Part shown: one piece after another, positions 1,715 through 44,787 of the stretch
Numbering within the stretch: position 1 is the first letter of the stretch
How the letters are laid out: each line of letters starts with the position of its first letter
Source: Levilactobacillus zymae DSM 19395
Lineage (GTDB): Bacteria > Bacillota > Bacilli > Lactobacillales > Lactobacillaceae
NCBI RefSeq assembly: GCF_001434115.1
Contig: NZ_AZDW01000051.1
Coordinates: forward strand, 1 to 64,000
DNA: 64,000 nt
Direction: 5' to 3'
The notes under the pieces: model-generated
What the model was told of the DNA's origin: nothing
Databases searched by the model: none
The model's input: only the letters and a program-made list of their open reading frames with translations
Translations under genes and position numbers: made by a program

Positions 1715-4150
1715 TTGGCATACAAACACCAAATTATTGAACGCAAGTGGCAACATTACTGGCGGGTCAACGAAACCTTCAAGGCTTCGGACAGCACGAC
1801 TAAGCCCAAGTATTACGTCTTAGACATGTTCCCTTACCCATCCGGGCAGGGACTGCACGTGGGGCATCCCGAAGGGTACACGGCGACCGACATCATGGCC
1901 CGTTACAAGCGGATGCAAGGCTTTAACGTCTTACACCCCATGGGTTGGGACGCGTTCGGTTTACCGGCCGAACAATACGCGTTAAAGACGGGGCACAACC
2001 CCAAGGACTTTACCGCGCACAACATCAAGAACTTCAAACGCCAGATTCGCTCGTTAGGCTTCTCCTACGACTGGAGTCGCGAAGTCAACACCACCGACGA
2101 ATCCTACTACAAATGGACGCAATGGATTTTTGAACAACTCTATAAGAAGGGCTTAGCCTACGAAGACAAGATCATGGTCAACTGGGCGCCCGACTTCATG
2201 GGTGGGACCGTCGTGGCCAACGAAGAAGTCGTCGACGGCAAGACCGAACGGGGCGGTTACCCCGTTTACCGCGTGCCAATGCGCCAATGGGTCTTACGGA
2301 TCACGGCCTACGCCGATCGCTTGTTGACCGACCTAGACGACCTGGATTGGCCTGAAAGCATCAAGGAACAACAACGTCACTGGATCGGCCGTTCCGAAGG
2401 GGCCAGCATCTTCTTTAAGATCGCCGACCACGCCGATAAGCAGATCGAAGTTTACTCGACGCGGCCCGACACGTTGTTTGGGGCGACCTACATGGTCTTA
2501 GCACCGGAACACAAGCTGGTCGATGAGATCACCACGCCGGAGCAACACGACGCCGTACAAGCCTACAAGGAAGCCATCGAAAGCAAGTCTGACTTGGAAC
2601 GGACCGACCTGAACAAGGATAAGTCCGGGGTCTTCACCGGGGCCTACGGAATCAACCCAATCAACGGCAAGAAGTTACCGATCTGGATCGGTGATTACGT
2701 CTTAGCGTCCTACGGGACCGGGGCCATCATGGCCGTTCCCGCCCACGACGAACGGGACAACGACTTCGCCAAGAAGTTCAAGTTGCCAATCATCCAAGTC
2801 ATTGCGCCTGCAGACGGTAGTGACGTGGACGTGCAAACGGCGGCCTACACGGGCGACGGGAAGCACATCAACTCCGACTTCTTAGACGGGATGGACAAGG
2901 CCGAAGCCATGACCGCGGCCACCGACTGGTTGGAAGCCCACGATGCGGGTCACAAGCAGGTCAACTTCCGGCTACGGGACTGGATCTTCTCGCGGCAACG
3001 TTACTGGGGCGAACCGATTCCCGTTATCCACTGGGAAGACGGCGAAACCACGTTGGTTCCGGAAGACGAATTGCCATTACGTTTGCCGGCTGCTAAGCAA
3101 CTCGAACCTTCGGGAACGGGTGAAAGCCCACTGGCGAACCTGGATGACTGGGTCAACGTCGTGGATAAGAACGGTCGTAAGGGGAAACGTGAAACCAACA
3201 CCATGCCACAATGGGCTGGGAGTTCGTGGTACTTCTTACGTTACGTTGATCCACACAACGACAAGATGATTGCCGATCCGGACAAACTGAAGTACTGGAT
3301 GCCCGTCGACCTCTACATTGGGGGCGCCGAACACGCCGTCTTGCATTTACTGTACGCGCGGTTCTGGCACAAGTTCTTGTACGACCTGGGTGTTGTGCCG
3401 ACCAAGGAACCGTTCCAGAAGTTAGTCAACCAGGGGATGATCCTGGGGACCAACCACGAAAAGATGTCCAAGTCCAAGGGGAACGTGATCAACCCCGACG
3501 AGATTGTGGAACAACACGGGGCCGATACCTTACGGCTGTACGAAATGTTCATGGGACCGTTGGAGGCTTCCAAGCCGTGGAGCACGGAAGGTATCAACGG
3601 GTCCCGGCGGTGGTTGGACCGCGTTTGGCGCTTGTTGATCGATGACAATAACCACTTGCGGGATCGCGTCACCATGATCAACGACAACCAGCTGGACAAG
3701 ATCTACAACCAAACGGTGAAGACCGTGACCGAAGACATCGAAGCCATGCGCTTCAACGTGGCCATCTCACAATTGATGGTCTTCGTCAACGAAGCCTACA
3801 AGGTGGACAGTCTGCCATTGATCTACATGGAAGGCTTCGTCAAGTTGATCTCGCCGATCGTCCCGCATATCGCCGAAGAGTTGTGGTCACTGATGGGCCA
3901 CGACGACACGATTGCCTACGCCAAGTGGCCAACCTATGACCCGAAGCAATTGGTCGAAGACGTCGTCGAGATGGTGGTTCAGGTCAACGGTAAGGTCCGC
4001 GCGCACTTGAAGGTCGCTAAGGACGCCGACAAGGACAGCATCGAACAAGCCGCCTTAGCGGACGACACGGTCAAGACCCACGTGGATGGCAAGACCATCC
4101 GCAAGGTCATCGTGGTGCCCGGTAAGTTGGTCAACATCGTCGCTAACTAA
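1715..4150 (+). CDS. leuS: Leucyl-tRNA synthetase
   Basis: This cytoplasmic class I synthetase of 811 residues charges tRNA-Leu. The HIGH-type motif is HVGH at residues 48-51 and the KMSKS loop is near residues 583-587. The CP1 editing domain lies between them, and a C-terminal anticodon-binding domain ends with [10 protein letters not shown]. Length is normal for the family. The start is a TTG preceded by AAAGGAAG, about eight bases upstream. It is controlled by the T-box leader in front of it. The stop codon lies inside the left end of a structured repeat that begins right at the 3' end of the gene. Confidence 0.97.
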
Positions 4151-4394
4151 AAACTAATTTAGAGGATTCAGCGCTTCCGGACCAATCAGCAATGGGCTGG
4201 AACGGGGTGGGCACGACTTCAAGCCCGTAAATCAGGTCTTGAAGGCCGACCTTTGTCTAAGCCGACTGAAAAACGTCGACTAAGACAAACGACACCCCTG
4301 AGCCCATTGCTGATTGGTCCTCCAGCTCACATTGGGTTTATTAAACGACAGTGAATGATTATGTTGTCTAATGATTGCGTTTTAAGCCTGATGC
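4142..4394 (+). repeat. Structured intergenic repeat, copy 1
   Basis: This is one of three long copies of the same element. Its core closing stem pairs 4179-4198 with 4301-4320 with no mismatch over 20 bp. Inside are GGGGTG/CACCCC, a hairpin with CTTCAAG/CTTGAAG arms, and a second long hairpin (TTTGTCT... pairing with ...AGACAAA, about 4253-4287). The outer ends match the other copies only weakly: the left end overlaps the leuS stop codon and the right end (TTTTAAGCCTG) is a decayed form of the terminal repeat. See the findings for covariation. Confidence 0.8.
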
Positions 4395-4400
4395 CAAATA

Positions 4401-4446
4401 AAATCCCACGATTACCGAAGGACGCTCCGGTAATCGTGGGATTTTT
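4401..4446. terminator. Strong hairpin terminator, usable in both directions
   Basis: A perfect 16-bp stem (AATCCCACGATTACCG and its complement) with a ten-base loop is followed by T5 on the plus strand and by a looser T-rich tract on the minus strand. It sits four bases past the stop of the 41-codon minus-strand gene and downstream of leuS plus repeat copy 1, so it probably ends both units. Confidence 0.85.
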
Positions 4447-4450
4447 GACG

Positions 4451-4576
4451 TTATTTGGTAGCTGGCTTGGGTGTTGGTCGGTTGGGGCCAAAGAAAGTGG
4501 TTAGTTGTTTGGCCTGGGCCCGTTGTGTCGAATTAAACGGCAAGTCGCGGGTCGGAATCGTGGTGGGTTTACTCAT
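4451..4576 (-). CDS. Small protein of unknown function (41 residues)
   Basis: The reading frame starts at an ATG with an excellent AAGGGAGG site five bases upstream and ends right before a strong terminator, which is the layout of a real small gene. The product begins MSKPTTIPTRDLPF and is rich in Thr, Pro, Gln and Lys with a short hydrophobic patch (LTTFFG). It has no signal peptide, membrane segment or cysteine. I do not recognise a family. It is flanked on both sides by copies of the structured repeat. Support is structural (ribosome site, terminator, coding-like composition) and not homology. Confidence 0.6.
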   Translation of the reverse strand: MSKPTTIPTRDLPFNSTQRAQAKQLTTFFGPNRPTPKPATK

Positions 4577-4619
4577 CGTCAGGACCTCCCTTAATCAAAA
4601 CTTCAATAATTGCTGATTA

Positions 4620-4894
4620 GAGCCTGTCTTAAAAGACTAATTTAGAGGATTCAGCGCCTCCGGGCCAGTCAGAAACGGGCTGGAACGGAGTGGGCACGGC
4701 TTCAAGCCCATAAATCAGGTCTTGAAGACCGGCCTTTGTCTAGGCTGGCAGGAGACGCCAGCCAACACAAATTTCACTCCTGAGCCCATTTCTGACTGGC
4801 CCTCCAGCTTACACGAGTTACAACAACAATTAAACTTCAACAAAGGGTACATAGATGACCATTTAAATCGTTGATTGATTTCTAAGACAGACCC
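4620..4894 (+). repeat. Structured intergenic repeat, copy 2
   Basis: Second long copy. The left end GAGCCTGTCTTAAAA and the right end (complement GGGTCTGTCTTAGAA) form terminal inverted repeats. The closing stem pairs 4662-4681 with 4783-4802. The arm sequence differs from copy 1 at several positions, but both arms change together. The secondary pair is GGAGTG/CACTCC instead of GGGGTG/CACCCC, again compensated. The second hairpin uses GGCTGGC/GCCAGCC. It lies between the 41-codon gene and the flavodoxin-fold gene. Confidence 0.85.
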
Positions 4895-4961: not shown

Positions 4962-5732
4962 CTAACGCCGCCGGTGCCGCACGAAGGTAAAGAAGTGCAA
5001 CAAACCCGCCAGTAAGACGTAGAAGATCACGACGAAGCTGGCATAGGTCAGCCAGAATTTGCCGGGCGTAAAGACGCCGAACCACCAGGCCTGTAAGCCC
5101 ATGGTGACCAGAGCCATGGCGGCAATCATGACGAAAAGCAGTAGGTAACGTTTCAAGGTATTATCATCCTTTCGCGGTCGGTGAGCGATCTTGTGGCCCC
5201 AGCGGGTACATTCGGCGAGTTTTGCCGGTCGGGGAGTCTCCGTGCCCCAGGTGCCGGTGCCGACGAACTCGCCCACCTTGATCAGTCCGGCGCCGGTCAG
5301 GACCCGGTCGATGGTGACGAAGGTCTGGTCGGTGATGCCGGTGAAGAAGTTGTCCAGGGAACCGATAAAACAAGTGGTCATGCTGAGATAGTGTTTGTTT
5401 TTGTAGTTGCCCGGTAAGGTGTCACCCACCGAGTTCATCTTCACTAACCGAAACCGCATACAATCGAAAAATTGTTTCATCACGCCCGGCAACCCACCCC
5501 AGTAAGTCGGGGCACAGATAATCCAAAAATCGCTGGCCGCTAGTTTGGCTTCCAGCGTATCTAGGGCCGGACACGTTTTTTCGGGTGTGTCCGGGTAAAT
5601 CTCGTAGTCGCGTAAAAAGACCGTTTCCACCTGCGCGTCGGCGGGTAAAGCGGTCAGGACGGCTTGCAGGTAGCCGGCCGTGATGCCCGTTTGCTCGTGA
5701 CTGCCTAGTAAGGCTAGATAACGCAAGGTCAT
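4962..5732 (-). CDS. Flavodoxin-fold NAD(P)H oxidoreductase with two C-terminal membrane segments
   Basis: The protein is about 256 residues. Residues 1-175 look like an NADPH-dependent FMN reductase/flavodoxin-like domain, with a first strand YLALLGS followed by a flavin-phosphate loop, then the WIICAPTYWGGLPGVMKQFFD segment typical of this fold. After a charged linker (RPRKDDNTLKR) come two hydrophobic helices, so the domain would be tethered to the inner face of the membrane. The start is uncertain: the ATG at 5732 has only a G6 run immediately before it. A possible promoter is TTGCTT and TAGACT (5787-5758, minus strand). The substrate is unknown. Confidence 0.75.
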   Translation of the reverse strand: MTLRYLALLGSHEQTGITAGYLQAVLTALPADAQVETVFLRDYEIYPDTPEKTCPALDTLEAKLAASDFWIICAPTYWGGLPGVMKQFFDCMRFRLVKMNSVGDTLPGNYKNKHYLSMTTCFIGSLDNFFTGITDQTFVTIDRVLTGAGLIKVGEFVGTGTWGTETPRPAKLAECTRWGHKIAHRPRKDDNTLKRYLLLFVMIAAMALVTMGLQAWWFGVFTPGKFWLTYASFVVIFYVLLAGLLHFFTFVRHRRR

Positions 5733-5843
5733 CCCCCCATTCGTTAAGACTGCGACTAGTCTACTACAAAAACCAGTTGAGAAGCAATTAGGGAACCCCC
5801 GCAAAGCCAATGTTATCAGGCGATTAGCGAATCTGACGGGACT

Positions 5844-42059: not shown

Positions 42060-42125
42060 ATGAATTACAACCATATTCTGGTGTGCGTGGCCGTAGACGG
42101 CCCAGGACGTTTTTCCGCAAATTAA
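42060..42125 (+). CDS. 21-codon frame resembling a universal stress protein start (leader peptide or remnant)
   Basis: The frame encodes MNYNHILVCVAVDGPGRFSAN and has a TGAGGTG site six bases upstream. Its first residues match the start of UspA proteins (MxYxxILVaVDGS). It stops after 21 codons, 20 bases before the MFS exporter start, and contains a GGCCGT/ACGGCC hairpin followed by T5. It may be the remains of a usp gene or a translated leader that affects the exporter gene. Neither can be settled here. Confidence 0.4.
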   Translation: MNYNHILVCVAVDGPGRFSAN

Positions 42126-42145
42126 CTTTTAAAGGAGAACTTGTT

Positions 42146-43348
42146 GTGAGAAACGTCCAGAAGAAAGCCCCGACCCTGTTATTGATCATCGTGTTGGTGG
42201 GCTTTCCGCAAATTAGTGAATCGATTTTTACGCCGGTCTTGCCGGCCTTAAGCCGCGCCATGGCGGTCAGTGCCAACCAGATCCAGTGGACCATGAGTAG
42301 CTACTTCGTGGCCTTTGCCGTGGGGGTCCTGTGGTGGGGCCAGTTGGCCGACCGAATTGGCCGCCGTCCCGCCATGCTCGGGGGCGTCGGGCTGTACCTG
42401 TTGGGGAACCTGGGGTTGTTGTTGAGTCCCAGGTTCGGCTGGTTACTCGGCTTTCGCCTGTTACAGGCCTTCGGTGCCAGTGCGGGGTCCGTGGTGACCC
42501 AAACCATCATGCGCGAAAGTTTTACGGGCATCGTGGGCGCCAGAATTTTCGCCCAGACCAGTGCGGCCATGGCGCTTTCACCGGCGTTAGGCCCGCTGAT
42601 TGGTGGCCTGATGCAAACGCTGGGCGGCTATCCGGCCGTCTTCGGCACGCTGGTCGTGATGGCCAGTGCCGTTTTCAGCTATAGTGCCTTGCGCTTGCCG
42701 GAGACACGGCCGCGTCAAGGGACCCCGGCGACTCGGCAATGGCCCATCGTCAAACGCCTCGTGAGCGATCCGGTGGTCTGGGGCTACGGCATCCTGATTG
42801 GGGGCATCAACGGCATTCTGTTTAGCTACTACGCCGAAGCCCCGTTTATCTTCGAGACCCACTTTAACTTCAGCGCGCTGGCTTACGGGGCGTTGGGGCT
42901 GAGCCTCGCGGCGGCGAGTCTTGGTGGCGCGCTACTAGTGAGTCGCCTGCTGAACCGGTGGACGCCGGAACAGATCATCGTCGGGGGCCTCCTGCTCAGC
43001 TGCGGGGCGGCCCTGCTCCTCTGGCTAGCCGCGGTCTTAGACCTGGCCTGGGGGATGGTCGGTGGCTTCTTCCTGGTCTTCTTGGGCCTGAACATCGCGT
43101 TACCCAACGCCTTGAACCGGGCCTTGATCGGCTACGAGGCCGTCATGGGCAGTGCCAGCGGCTGGTTTAGCCTGGGTTACTATCTGCTAGTCAGCGCGTT
43201 GACCTACGGGATGAGCCTGCTGCACAGCCCATCGATTCAGCGCTTGCCGCTGTATTGCCTGGTCCTGTGCCTGGGTATGGTCACGGCCTACGGTGGACTG
43301 GTGCGCCGAACGCAGGCCCGGCGCTTGTTGGCGGCAGCTTCGGATTAA
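42146..43348 (+). CDS. MFS multidrug transporter, Bcr/CflA type
   Basis: This 400-residue protein has 12 hydrophobic segments. The MFS motif between helices 2 and 3 is WWGQLADRIGRRPAMLGG (residues about 62-79), and the DHA1 motif C region in helix 5 is GPLIGG-like (ALSPALGPLIGGLMQ). It would export drugs or metabolites with proton antiport. GTG 42146 has AAAGGAGAA ahead. A 21-codon frame precedes it, and repeat copy 3 follows 18 bases after the stop. Confidence 0.88.
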   Translation: MRNVQKKAPTLLLIIVLVGFPQISESIFTPVLPALSRAMAVSANQIQWTMSSYFVAFAVGVLWWGQLADRIGRRPAMLGGVGLYLLGNLGLLLSPRFGWLLGFRLLQAFGASAGSVVTQTIMRESFTGIVGARIFAQTSAAMALSPALGPLIGGLMQTLGGYPAVFGTLVVMASAVFSYSALRLPETRPRQGTPATRQWPIVKRLVSDPVVWGYGILIGGINGILFSYYAEAPFIFETHFNFSALAYGALGLSLAAASLGGALLVSRLLNRWTPEQIIVGGLLLSCGAALLLWLAAVLDLAWGMVGGFFLVFLGLNIALPNALNRALIGYEAVMGSASGWFSLGYYLLVSALTYGMSLLHSPSIQRLPLYCLVLCLGMVTAYGGLVRRTQARRLLAAASD

Positions 43349-43366: not shown

Positions 43367-43649
43367 GGGCCTGTCTTAAAAGACTAATTTTGAGTATTCA
43401 GCGCCTCCGGGCCAGTCAGAAACGGGCTGGAACGGGGTGGGCACGGCTTCAAGCCCATAGCCCAGGTCTTGAAGACCGACCTTTGTCTAGGCCGGCAAAG
43501 GACACCGGCCAACACAAATTTCACCCCTGAGCCCATTTCTGACTGGCCCTCCAGCTTATACGAGTTATAACAATAAATAAACTGGATTCTTTTCAGTAAA
43601 GGGTAATGGATGATCATTTAAATCGGTAATTGAGTTTTAAGACAGACCC
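43367..43649 (+). mobile_element. Structured repeat, copy 3, with terminal inverted repeats (MITE-like)
   Basis: This is the most complete copy. The ends GGGCCTGTCTTAAAA and (complement) GGGTCTGTCTTAAAA form terminal inverted repeats, and both ends sit in a CTAG, consistent with TA target duplication. The closing stem pairs 43409-43428 with 43530-43549. Inner pairs are GGGGTG/CACCCC, CTTCAAG/CTTGAAG and GGCCGG/CCGGCC. There is no open reading frame for a transposase, so any mobility would need an enzyme in trans. Confidence 0.8.
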
Positions 43650-43652
43650 TAG

Positions 43653-43766
43653 TAAGTCCAGCGCTTCCGGGCCAGTCGTTATGACAGTAACGGGAGTGTG
43701 TTCTTTCGAATTGGCTAACAAGTAAGTCGTTATTTTGATCAATCACTAATTTTTAAAGTGAGTCCT
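43653..43766 (+). repeat. Vestigial fourth copy of the structured repeat
   Basis: Right after copy 3, CAGCGCTTCCGGGCCAGTC (43659-43677) repeats the start of the core stem. After a deletion, TTTTTAAAGTGAGTCC (ending 43765) resembles the right terminal repeat and is followed by another CTAG-like TAG. The rest of the core is lost. Confidence 0.55.
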
Positions 43767-43816
43767 AGGTCATGAAAAAGGGATGGGACCATCAGCGTCA
43801 CATCCTTGACCCAAAC

Positions 43817-43875: not shown

Positions 43876-44787
43876 TTAGTGGTTATGATGTTGCTGCTTA
43901 CCAGCGTTACGGTTGCGGTTACGGTTCTTGTCGTGCACCTCGGCCGCCTTGACCTGTTTAACTTCGGGTTTGACGGGCTCGGGAATGACGGGCGCCGGTT
44001 GGTCCTTCATCTTTTCCTTGATTTCGCGGCGAATCCGGGGCCGGTAGAAGTTGATGATCAAGGTCTGCAGGCAGGCGAACAACCCACCCACGAAGAAGTA
44101 CAGGCCTAATCCGGCGGGGGAACTCATGGTGAAGAACAGGATCATCACGGGCGACATCAGCAGGGTGTAGCGCATCTGCTTCTTCTGGTCCGCGGGCATC
44201 CCCAACATGGACAGGTACCCCTGTAACAGGTAGGACAAGAAGGACAGTAACGCTAGGATCCAGCTGGCCTTCCCCAAGGGGATGTTCATAAAGACGGCCT
44301 TGGAGAGTTCGGGTGAGTACCGAATCGCGGCGTACAACGCGGCGAAGATCGGCATCTGAATCAGTAAGGGCAGACAGCCGATCCCCCCGGTCATACTAAT
44401 ACCGTTGTTGCGGTAGAGGGCCATCATGGCCTGACTGGCCGCAGCCTGTTCCTCGGGCGTCTTAGCGGCCTTTTGTTGCTTCTGCAGGGCGGTCATTTGG
44501 GGCCGCACCATGGAGATCTTTTCTTGTTGAACGGTCGCGCTACGCATCTGCTTGACCATGAGTGGTAAGAGGACCATCCGGACGATCACGGTCAGGATGA
44601 TGATGGCCCAGCCGTAGCTGTTGCCGAAGATGTTGGCTAACCAATCCATGACGTGTTGCCCGGGAACGGCTAAGTAGTCGTAAACGAAGCCGTAGGGTTT
44701 CCCGTTCTTCGTCTGCACACAGCCACTGAGGACCAGGGCGAGGCTCGCCAAAGCGGCGGTCACCGAAACTTTCTTTGAGATTTTCAT
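43876..44787 (-). CDS. yidC: Membrane protein insertase YidC/OxaA, lipoprotein form
   Basis: This 303-residue insertase places proteins in the cytoplasmic membrane, alone or with SecYEG. A lipoprotein signal ends in LVLSGC (Cys about 23). Five membrane segments follow, with the first cytoplasmic loop rich in Gln and Lys (MVRPQMTALQKQQKAAK) and the groove Arg in the first segment (ILTVIVRMVLLPL). The basic, Asn/His-rich tail binds ribosomes in the family. It is adjacent to the acylphosphatase gene and transcribed the same way. Confidence 0.95.
   Translation of the reverse strand: MKISKKVSVTAALASLALVLSGCVQTKNGKPYGFVYDYLAVPGQHVMDWLANIFGNSYGWAIIILTVIVRMVLLPLMVKQMRSATVQQEKISMVRPQMTALQKQQKAAKTPEEQAAASQAMMALYRNNGISMTGGIGCLPLLIQMPIFAALYAAIRYSPELSKAVFMNIPLGKASWILALLSFLSYLLQGYLSMLGMPADQKKQMRYTLLMSPVMILFFTMSSPAGLGLYFFVGGLFACLQTLIINFYRPRIRREIKEKMKDQPAPVIPEPVKPEVKQVKAAEVHDKNRNRNRNAGKQQHHNH

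Follow-up and report, generated by a model that had tools for sequence, protein, structure and literature searches.

A widespread family of structured, once-mobile repeats in Lactobacillaceae with a module that may act as a folded single strand

What kind of element is represented by three similar intergenic sequences of Levilactobacillus zymae DSM 19395, each of which can be folded into one branched hairpin? The window analyzed here, a stretch of 64,000 nt from contig NZ_AZDW01000051.1, contains all three at the places given by a first-pass annotation, namely copy 1 at 4142-4394, copy 2 at 4620-4894 and copy 3 at 43367-43649. A chance origin of the repeat was dismissed because a 21-nt lead motif (up to 3 mismatches) gave 4 matches vs 0 in 100 shuffles and because a blastn search of the genome with copy 2 gave 41 matches, copy 2 itself among them. 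The copies appear to be members of a dispersed intergenic repeat family of Lactobacillaceae, whose unit is a module of about 141 nt with one strand folding into a three-way structure. This is a real, widespread family of structured, once-mobile repeats, and it was found in no library and no open-licence paper searched.

The basic unit, one module of about 141 nt, consists of a closing stem of up to 20 bp, a conserved CA/GUUCC internal loop, a 6-bp inner stem and two hairpin arms, one of which carries a conserved U·U mismatch (TTTGTCTTAG...CTTAGACAAA) and the other the CTTCAAG/CTTGAAG pairing. A covariance model built from 49 sequences, copies 1-3 among them, recovered three modules in the window, all on the minus strand: the three-way fold of copy 1 at 4179..4320 (147.8 bits), that of copy 2 at 4662..4802 (155.5 bits) and that of copy 3 at 43409..43549 (152.7 bits), while two weak plus-strand matches were copies 2 and 3 read backwards. 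The 20-bp closing stem is 100% complementary in copy 1 and 95% in copies 2 and 3. The paired arm changes quoted in the first-pass annotation were correct, and its statement that both arms change together stood for these, except for a C/A mismatch in the plus-strand stem of copies 2 and 3 (AAACGGG with CCCATTT), which becomes a G-U pair on the minus strand.

The annotation had read such changes as a sign that the fold is under selection, be it as RNA or as single-stranded DNA, and that more than duplication is at work, and had proposed to examine covariation in a larger set. Across 49 modules of the genus, two-sided changes were found in 40 of the 52 predicted pairs, paired cells amounted to 95.2% (77.9% shuffled, at most 54.8% with the partner slid), and the covariation score reached 0.489, compared with 0.160 after shuffling and at most 0.110 after sliding. 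A held-out set of 74 modules from other genera (Companilactobacillus, Lapidilactobacillus, Lactiplantibacillus, Schleiferilactobacillus, Lacticaseibacillus, Pediococcus and uncultured Lactobacillus) was drawn from 40 of 80 pattern-scan contigs at E up to 1e-10, all of them unused in model building. Here, 46 of the 52 pairs showed two-sided changes, with 96.6% paired cells vs 69.3% shuffled and a score of 0.665 vs 0.172 shuffled and at most 0.107 slid, in an alignment that was fitted to the covariance model and hence leans towards it. The own genome alone gave 28/52 two-sided pairs and 96.4% paired vs 92.1% shuffled. Covariation above controls, as expected of a structured non-coding RNA, was present in the genus, held-out and own-genome sets, supporting the proposed selection on the fold.

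In two relatives, G019 and G281, and in most named contigs examined, the modules were arranged as inverted pairs with their folding strands pointing outward, i.e. as inverted doublets of the kind that characterizes REPINs and bacterial interspersed mosaic elements (BIMEs). Neighbors less than 1 kb apart pointed outward in 45 of 48, 48 of 49 and 25 of 25 cases (named contigs, G019 and G281, respectively; 118 of 122 in total), the exceptions being two '--' and two '++' arrangements. The named-contig pairs in this count are model matches with another match on the same contig, those without a neighbor within 1 kb having been dropped by eye, and the contig windows may overlap. Gaps within the named-contig pairs ranged from 44 to 797 nt, and the two modules of one pair shared the same architecture with different sequences. 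Most examined copies of the own genome, G001 and G034 were single, a count in which a diverged partner could be missed.

The two strands of the module do not fold equally well. RNA minimum free energies of modules 1/2/3 were -87.1/-90.7/-90.3 kcal/mol on the minus strand vs -78.0/-84.0/-78.2 kcal/mol on the plus strand; the whole of copy 2 folded to -127 vs -107.3 kcal/mol, and 0 of 200 shuffles were as good on either strand. On the outward strand, G·U exceeded A·C by 92:9 in 25 modules of the own genome, by 34:2 and 64:4 in modules A and B of 20 G281 units, and by 36:4 and 26:2 in 17 and 14 G019 modules (A and B), amounting to 252:21 over the five sets, in 5/5 of which the consensus fold energy was lower on this strand. 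Over 157 modules, the ratio was 380:52 on the window's minus strand and 49:118 on the plus strand with its own fold. As a cruciform read alike on both strands would not give a strand skew, a single strand, either RNA or DNA, is probably what gets read.

The modules could work as RNA. Once the outward strand is transcribed from flanking genes or weak promoters, its three-way fold would bind a protein or influence processing, decay or termination, in line with a proposal made for structured repeats of Bacillus cereus; we consider this possible, although somewhat improbable. The excess of G-U over A-C and the conserved loop letters fit such a role, paired modules would provide transcripts from either side with one sense module, and B. 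cereus intergenic repeats lie within mRNAs in 84/165 and 62/155 copies of two strains (PMC3446304). The lactobacillar elements are mostly intergenic and occur between convergent genes in 35/125 and between divergent genes in 21/125 cases, hence more often and more rarely, respectively, than element-free intergenic stretches of the fetched loci (7/67 and 21/67); the whole window, elements included, gave 7/34 and 9/34. In a count of 78 single modules from six genomes, with genes taken as mechanical open reading frames (ORFs), 22 of the 43 modules between co-directional genes were antisense to both neighbors and 21 sense to both. This neutral orientation speaks against an mRNA-borne element, since retained single modules should then favor the sense direction.

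Signals for dedicated transcription did not stand out. Among those copies of the own genome that lack terminal inverted repeats (TIRs), identity in the region upstream of this strand is 53%, with no conserved promoter there. Against 0.5 and 0.7 expected, consensus scans at the window copies yielded one promoter-like site each; terminator-like sites numbered 1 and 0, with 1.4 and 1.2 expected. The sole terminator-like site lies inside the copy 2 module (tail TGATTTATGG), and on these counts the window copies do not qualify as intrinsic terminators, which combine a GC-rich hairpin with a T run behind it. Divergent dedicated promoters between paired modules were rejected in view of gaps as small as 44 nt. 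Given the neutral orientation, the lack of conserved promoter-sized sequence and the unremarkable consensus scans, we favor, with modest confidence, a folded DNA single strand over RNA.

The surroundings of the modules resemble miniature inverted-repeat transposable elements (MITEs). Copy 2 (275 bp) and copy 3 (283 bp), both assigned to the minus strand, are bounded by 15-bp TIRs, GGGYCTGTCTTAAAA, located at 4620-4634 and 4880-4894 and at 43367-43381 and 43635-43649, with copy 2 one letter off at each end. The previously given ends therefore coincide with element ends for these two copies, whereas for copy 1 a TIR was sought and none was found. The junctions read TTA-G... and ...C-CAG in copy 2 and CTA-G... 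and ...C-TAG in copy 3, and YTAG/CTAR spans most intact ends, the outermost G and C being the TIR's own letters. Allowing up to 3 substitutions, 10 of 40 copies in the own genome retain both TIRs, 7 one and 23 none. A TIR pattern search of this genome (up to 1 mismatch) returned 24 sites and 8 TIR pairs spanning 224-300 bp; 21 of the sites fall in listed copies, and of the other three, two mark an element with a run of N in its module and one an element with a shortened module, so that TIRs around a damaged module are rare. G281 units, roughly 0.7-0.9 kb long, carry TGATTAAAACGTGCC-type ends, so that TIR-bounded elements as expected for MITEs occur in both genomes, with different TIRs and a shared module. 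In G019, inspection of a few loci by eye revealed no TIR outside the modules, and the element boundaries seem to lie only a little outside the closing stems.

Copy 3 is absent from G001 (flanks 81% and 89% identical; 84 bases vs 491 in the window) and from G034 (flanks 84% and 85% identical; 175 bases vs 611 in the window). These cases provide the presence/absence at orthologous sites by which MITE mobility is judged, and the missing stretch in both genomes also takes in a relic beside copy 3. If the repeat were simply a MITE derived from a DDE-type insertion sequence, with an interior that is palindromic by chance and covariation that reflects different source copies, this could explain the TIR, the YTAG/CTAR junctions and the both-ended copies (10/40). 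We regard this as very improbable and already largely refuted, as the TIRs differ between the own genome and G281 while the module persists, modules outlast TIRs, and 46/52 pairs covary.

Judged from sequence comparison, the module seems to outlive its vehicle. In the 23 own copies without TIR, the outer parts are 52-53% identical, the modules 85%, and 96.8% of pairs are standard (22/23 scored), while the 10 copies with both TIRs show 83-85%, 88% and 95.0%, respectively, a comparison that leaves out the seven copies with one TIR. The 20 G281 units have 92-93% identity in the modules, 77% in the spacer and 76-77% in the outer parts. Comparisons of orthologous loci add several observations. Loci L008 and L071 show compensated differences, and in L013 vs L086 a young left part and module seem to sit on an old right part common to both. 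Since the latter looks like gene conversion, these orthologous comparisons were not taken as proof of compensation at a fixed site. Loci L336 and L345, from two species with one common flank (97% over 786 bp), have near-identical modules and a strongly diverged spacer, a pattern to which either replacement by gene conversion or unusually fast change can contribute. Loci L337 (1394-2086) and L343 (834-1748) represent the same site in two congeneric species; from TIR to TIR, one element is turned around relative to the other, and after reversal the two are nearly identical save for a deletion of about 220 bp.

The persistence of modules also touches on the proposal of a purely selfish non-autonomous element, in which modules are ends read as folded single strands by an unknown transposase, REPIN-like, and old copies would look intact owing to gene conversion and to recent spread. 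This proposal agrees with the inverted pairing of a strand-specific fold and with spacers less conserved than modules, as in REPINs (PMC3116915), with the G019 elements that seem by eye in few loci to end near the closing stems, and with the whole-element inversion in L337/L343. We nevertheless judge it unlikely, because TIR-less copies retain modules and no matching enzyme was recognized. A Y1 transposase (PF01797) occurs in 10/16 genomes, including G034, G001, G024, G033, G005, G349 and G375, but was not found in the module-rich genomes G000 (the own genome), G019, G281 and G082, and the REP-associated tyrosine transposase (RAYT)/Y1 type was rejected as the engine on this ground. Among 105 ORF clusters (752 ORFs beside 188 loci), no transposase was recognized in the 25 largest, which were named by reading without a library scan. 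As these 25 are either ORFs within the repeat itself or genes that were read as ordinary ones, for example those of transporters, a recurrent neighboring ORF was rejected as transposase. A related autonomous insertion sequence was likewise not recognized among the 25 largest clusters, with the TIR search covering the own genome only. The REPIN model thus suits the layout, not the enzyme.

Collecting copies in the genome and its relatives, as suggested by the first-pass annotation, revealed a family far larger than three copies. With at most 150 candidates scored in each genome, covariance-model matches at E up to 0.001 numbered at least 71 in the own genome, 134 in G019, 131 in G031, 103 in G033, 88 in G005 and 38 in G034. 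At least 133 modules were found on the G019 chromosome at E 1e-6, and at least 53 and 75 in G281 and G033 at E 1e-5, with one G033 match on contig C5, not C1. Searches of the family and order scored 8 candidates per genome, so that counts are lower bounds and absence holds for these searches only: at least 122 of 397 Lactobacillaceae genomes and at least 15 of 40 genera gave matches, 275 family genomes gave none, and all 23 matching genomes among 395 in the order belong to Lactobacillaceae. A pattern scan of named genomes returned at least 80 loci, with 136 model matches among the loci listed; eight pattern loci from other phyla (L212, L224, L226, L231, L238, L244, L273, L275) and three from Lactobacillaceae (L251, L277, L280) had no model match. 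Plasmid and phage collections gave no match in a blastn search with copy 2 only (E 1e-5), which diverged modules could escape, and none of 34 loci retrieved from viral contigs with two patterns carried a module at E up to 0.1.

The earlier view that no named RNA family fits was upheld: Rfam 15 gave no match in the window at gathering scores, and none of 8 matches in seven loci at E up to 5, six of them sub-threshold, fell on a module. No description of the family was found in searches of the open-licence literature. Riboswitches were noted in relatives' loci away from the modules (lysine, L042:920-1100; guanidine-I, L139:2733-2829).

The chromosomal positions of the modules are uneven in some genomes. 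On the G019 chromosome (C1, 2,674,724 bp), where dnaA is located at 22, none of the 133 listed modules is more than 0.96 Mb away from this gene, and the terminus region contains a 788-kb stretch without a listed module, compared with a maximum gap of 393 kb in 10,000 random placements of 84 units (Rayleigh p ~6e-9; 150/1031 candidates scored). The far third of the chromosome holds 1/26 units in G034 among the matches listed and, with the length assumed, 17-18/63 units in G033 (5/27 above 80 bits), whereas G281 shows no bias (6/28).

Within the window, copies 1 and 2 are flanked by leuS (1715-4150, TIGR00396) and a convergent FMN-reductase-like gene (4962-5810, minus strand), with the copy 1 module lying 28 bases past the leuS stop codon. 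Between the two copies, a 21-bp hairpin at 4400-4445 (AAAATCCCACGATTACCG...) with T runs at its end on either strand was missed by the simple terminator scan and may be a bidirectional terminator that follows leuS and copy 1. Copy 3 separates the gene of a Bcr/CflA-family transporter (42083-43348) from a convergent yidC-like gene (43876-44787, minus strand). Directly adjoining it at 43659..43768 on the minus strand, with a right boundary set by eye, is a probable relic of a further copy with the left lead-in CAGCGCTTCCGGGCCAGTC, a decayed right end (...TTTTTAAAGTGAGTCCTAG) and the module deleted.

Established at the level of sequence are the fold and its covariation, the strand that folds better, the arrangement in pairs, the absence of copy 3 from two relatives and the retention of modules past the decay of the ends. 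The folding strand, the TIRs, the inverted pairs seen in relatives and the distribution across the family go beyond the first-pass annotation. Our best explanation, whose chances of being right or wrong we hold to be evenly balanced, is a MITE-like repeat family with a structure that does its work in the form of a folded single strand and is kept by selection or gene conversion. The units would have spread as MITE-like non-autonomous elements. Most elements of the own genome have one module, and several genera have two diverged modules that face each other in inverted orientation with folding strands outward. The folded strand would most likely be read by a DNA-binding or recombining protein that meets single-stranded DNA, possibly at a replication fork or an extruded hairpin; such a reader is suggested by the lack of sense preference, the lack of conserved adjoining promoter-like sequence and spacers as short as 44 nt. 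Module integrity after insertion may then be maintained by selection, gene conversion between copies, or both.

Several points weigh against this explanation. When the other strand was folded afresh, G-U was favored over A-C in 4/5 sets as well (32:16, 22:7, 23:8, 21:3 and 2:13; 100:47 in total), because the folding program picks pairs that count G-U as paired and the strand count thus has a built-in lean; part of the outward-strand excess is the program's pair choice, but that part is much smaller than the excess. G-U tolerance and conserved loop letters suit RNA at least as well as DNA, and no enzyme, protein or transcript has been identified for the repeat. A target-site duplication is not demonstrable, as no base-level alignment was obtained at the sites that lack copy 3 and the missing stretch (491 vs 84 bases in G001) exceeds the element. 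Since copies were collected via the module, decayed modules are under-sampled; the independent TIR search gave only one element with a shortened module, but from a small set. Finally, the L013/L086 module looks replaced by paralogous sequence, and gene conversion may explain part of the conservation.

Doubtful, yet worth stating, is the further idea of a new kind of chromosomal site, in which paired outward three-way folds of single-stranded DNA would be kept by selection in Lactobacillaceae and recognized by a protein of the host or of the element. Such sites could serve in handling the chromosome or in moving DNA in a hitherto unknown way. The origin-side bias in some Levilactobacillus hints at the former. 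In any case, a structured repeat family that is abundant in food and probiotic bacteria offers a clean system for two questions, namely how a chromosome's folded single strands are read and what preserves a fold whose mobile element has decayed, and the covariance model makes the copies easy to find and mask.

Among known systems, the T-shaped inverted terminal repeats of the adeno-associated virus (AAV) type and the telomeres of linear replicons resemble the module pairs in having a long, two-armed stem at each end, one inverted relative to the other. The lactobacillar repeats, in contrast, are chromosomal and interspersed, with no replicative form seen. Closer in setting are the interspersed intergenic repeats bcr1-bcr18 of another Gram-positive group, that of B. 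cereus, of which bcr1-bcr3 are described as MITE-like and bcr10 and bcr18 as conserved in secondary structure; the part of that source considered makes no mention of inverted module pairs (PMC3446304). REPINs and BIMEs are intergenic inverted pairs of a folding unit with a less conserved spacer, compensatory changes and many copies per chromosome, all of which was found in the lactobacillar repeat too (PMC3116915). In contrast, REP sequences measure 20-40 bp (PMC3733652) vs a unit of about 141 nt with a three-way junction, and the lactobacillar repeat has TIRs outside its modules in two genera and no Y1 transposase found in four module-rich genomes. With prokaryotic MITEs such as BOX, RUP, SPRITE and others, the family shares short, TIR-bounded, mostly intergenic elements in tens of copies (PMC10969869), but its interior is a module that recurs in at least 15 of 40 family genera and outlasts the TIRs.

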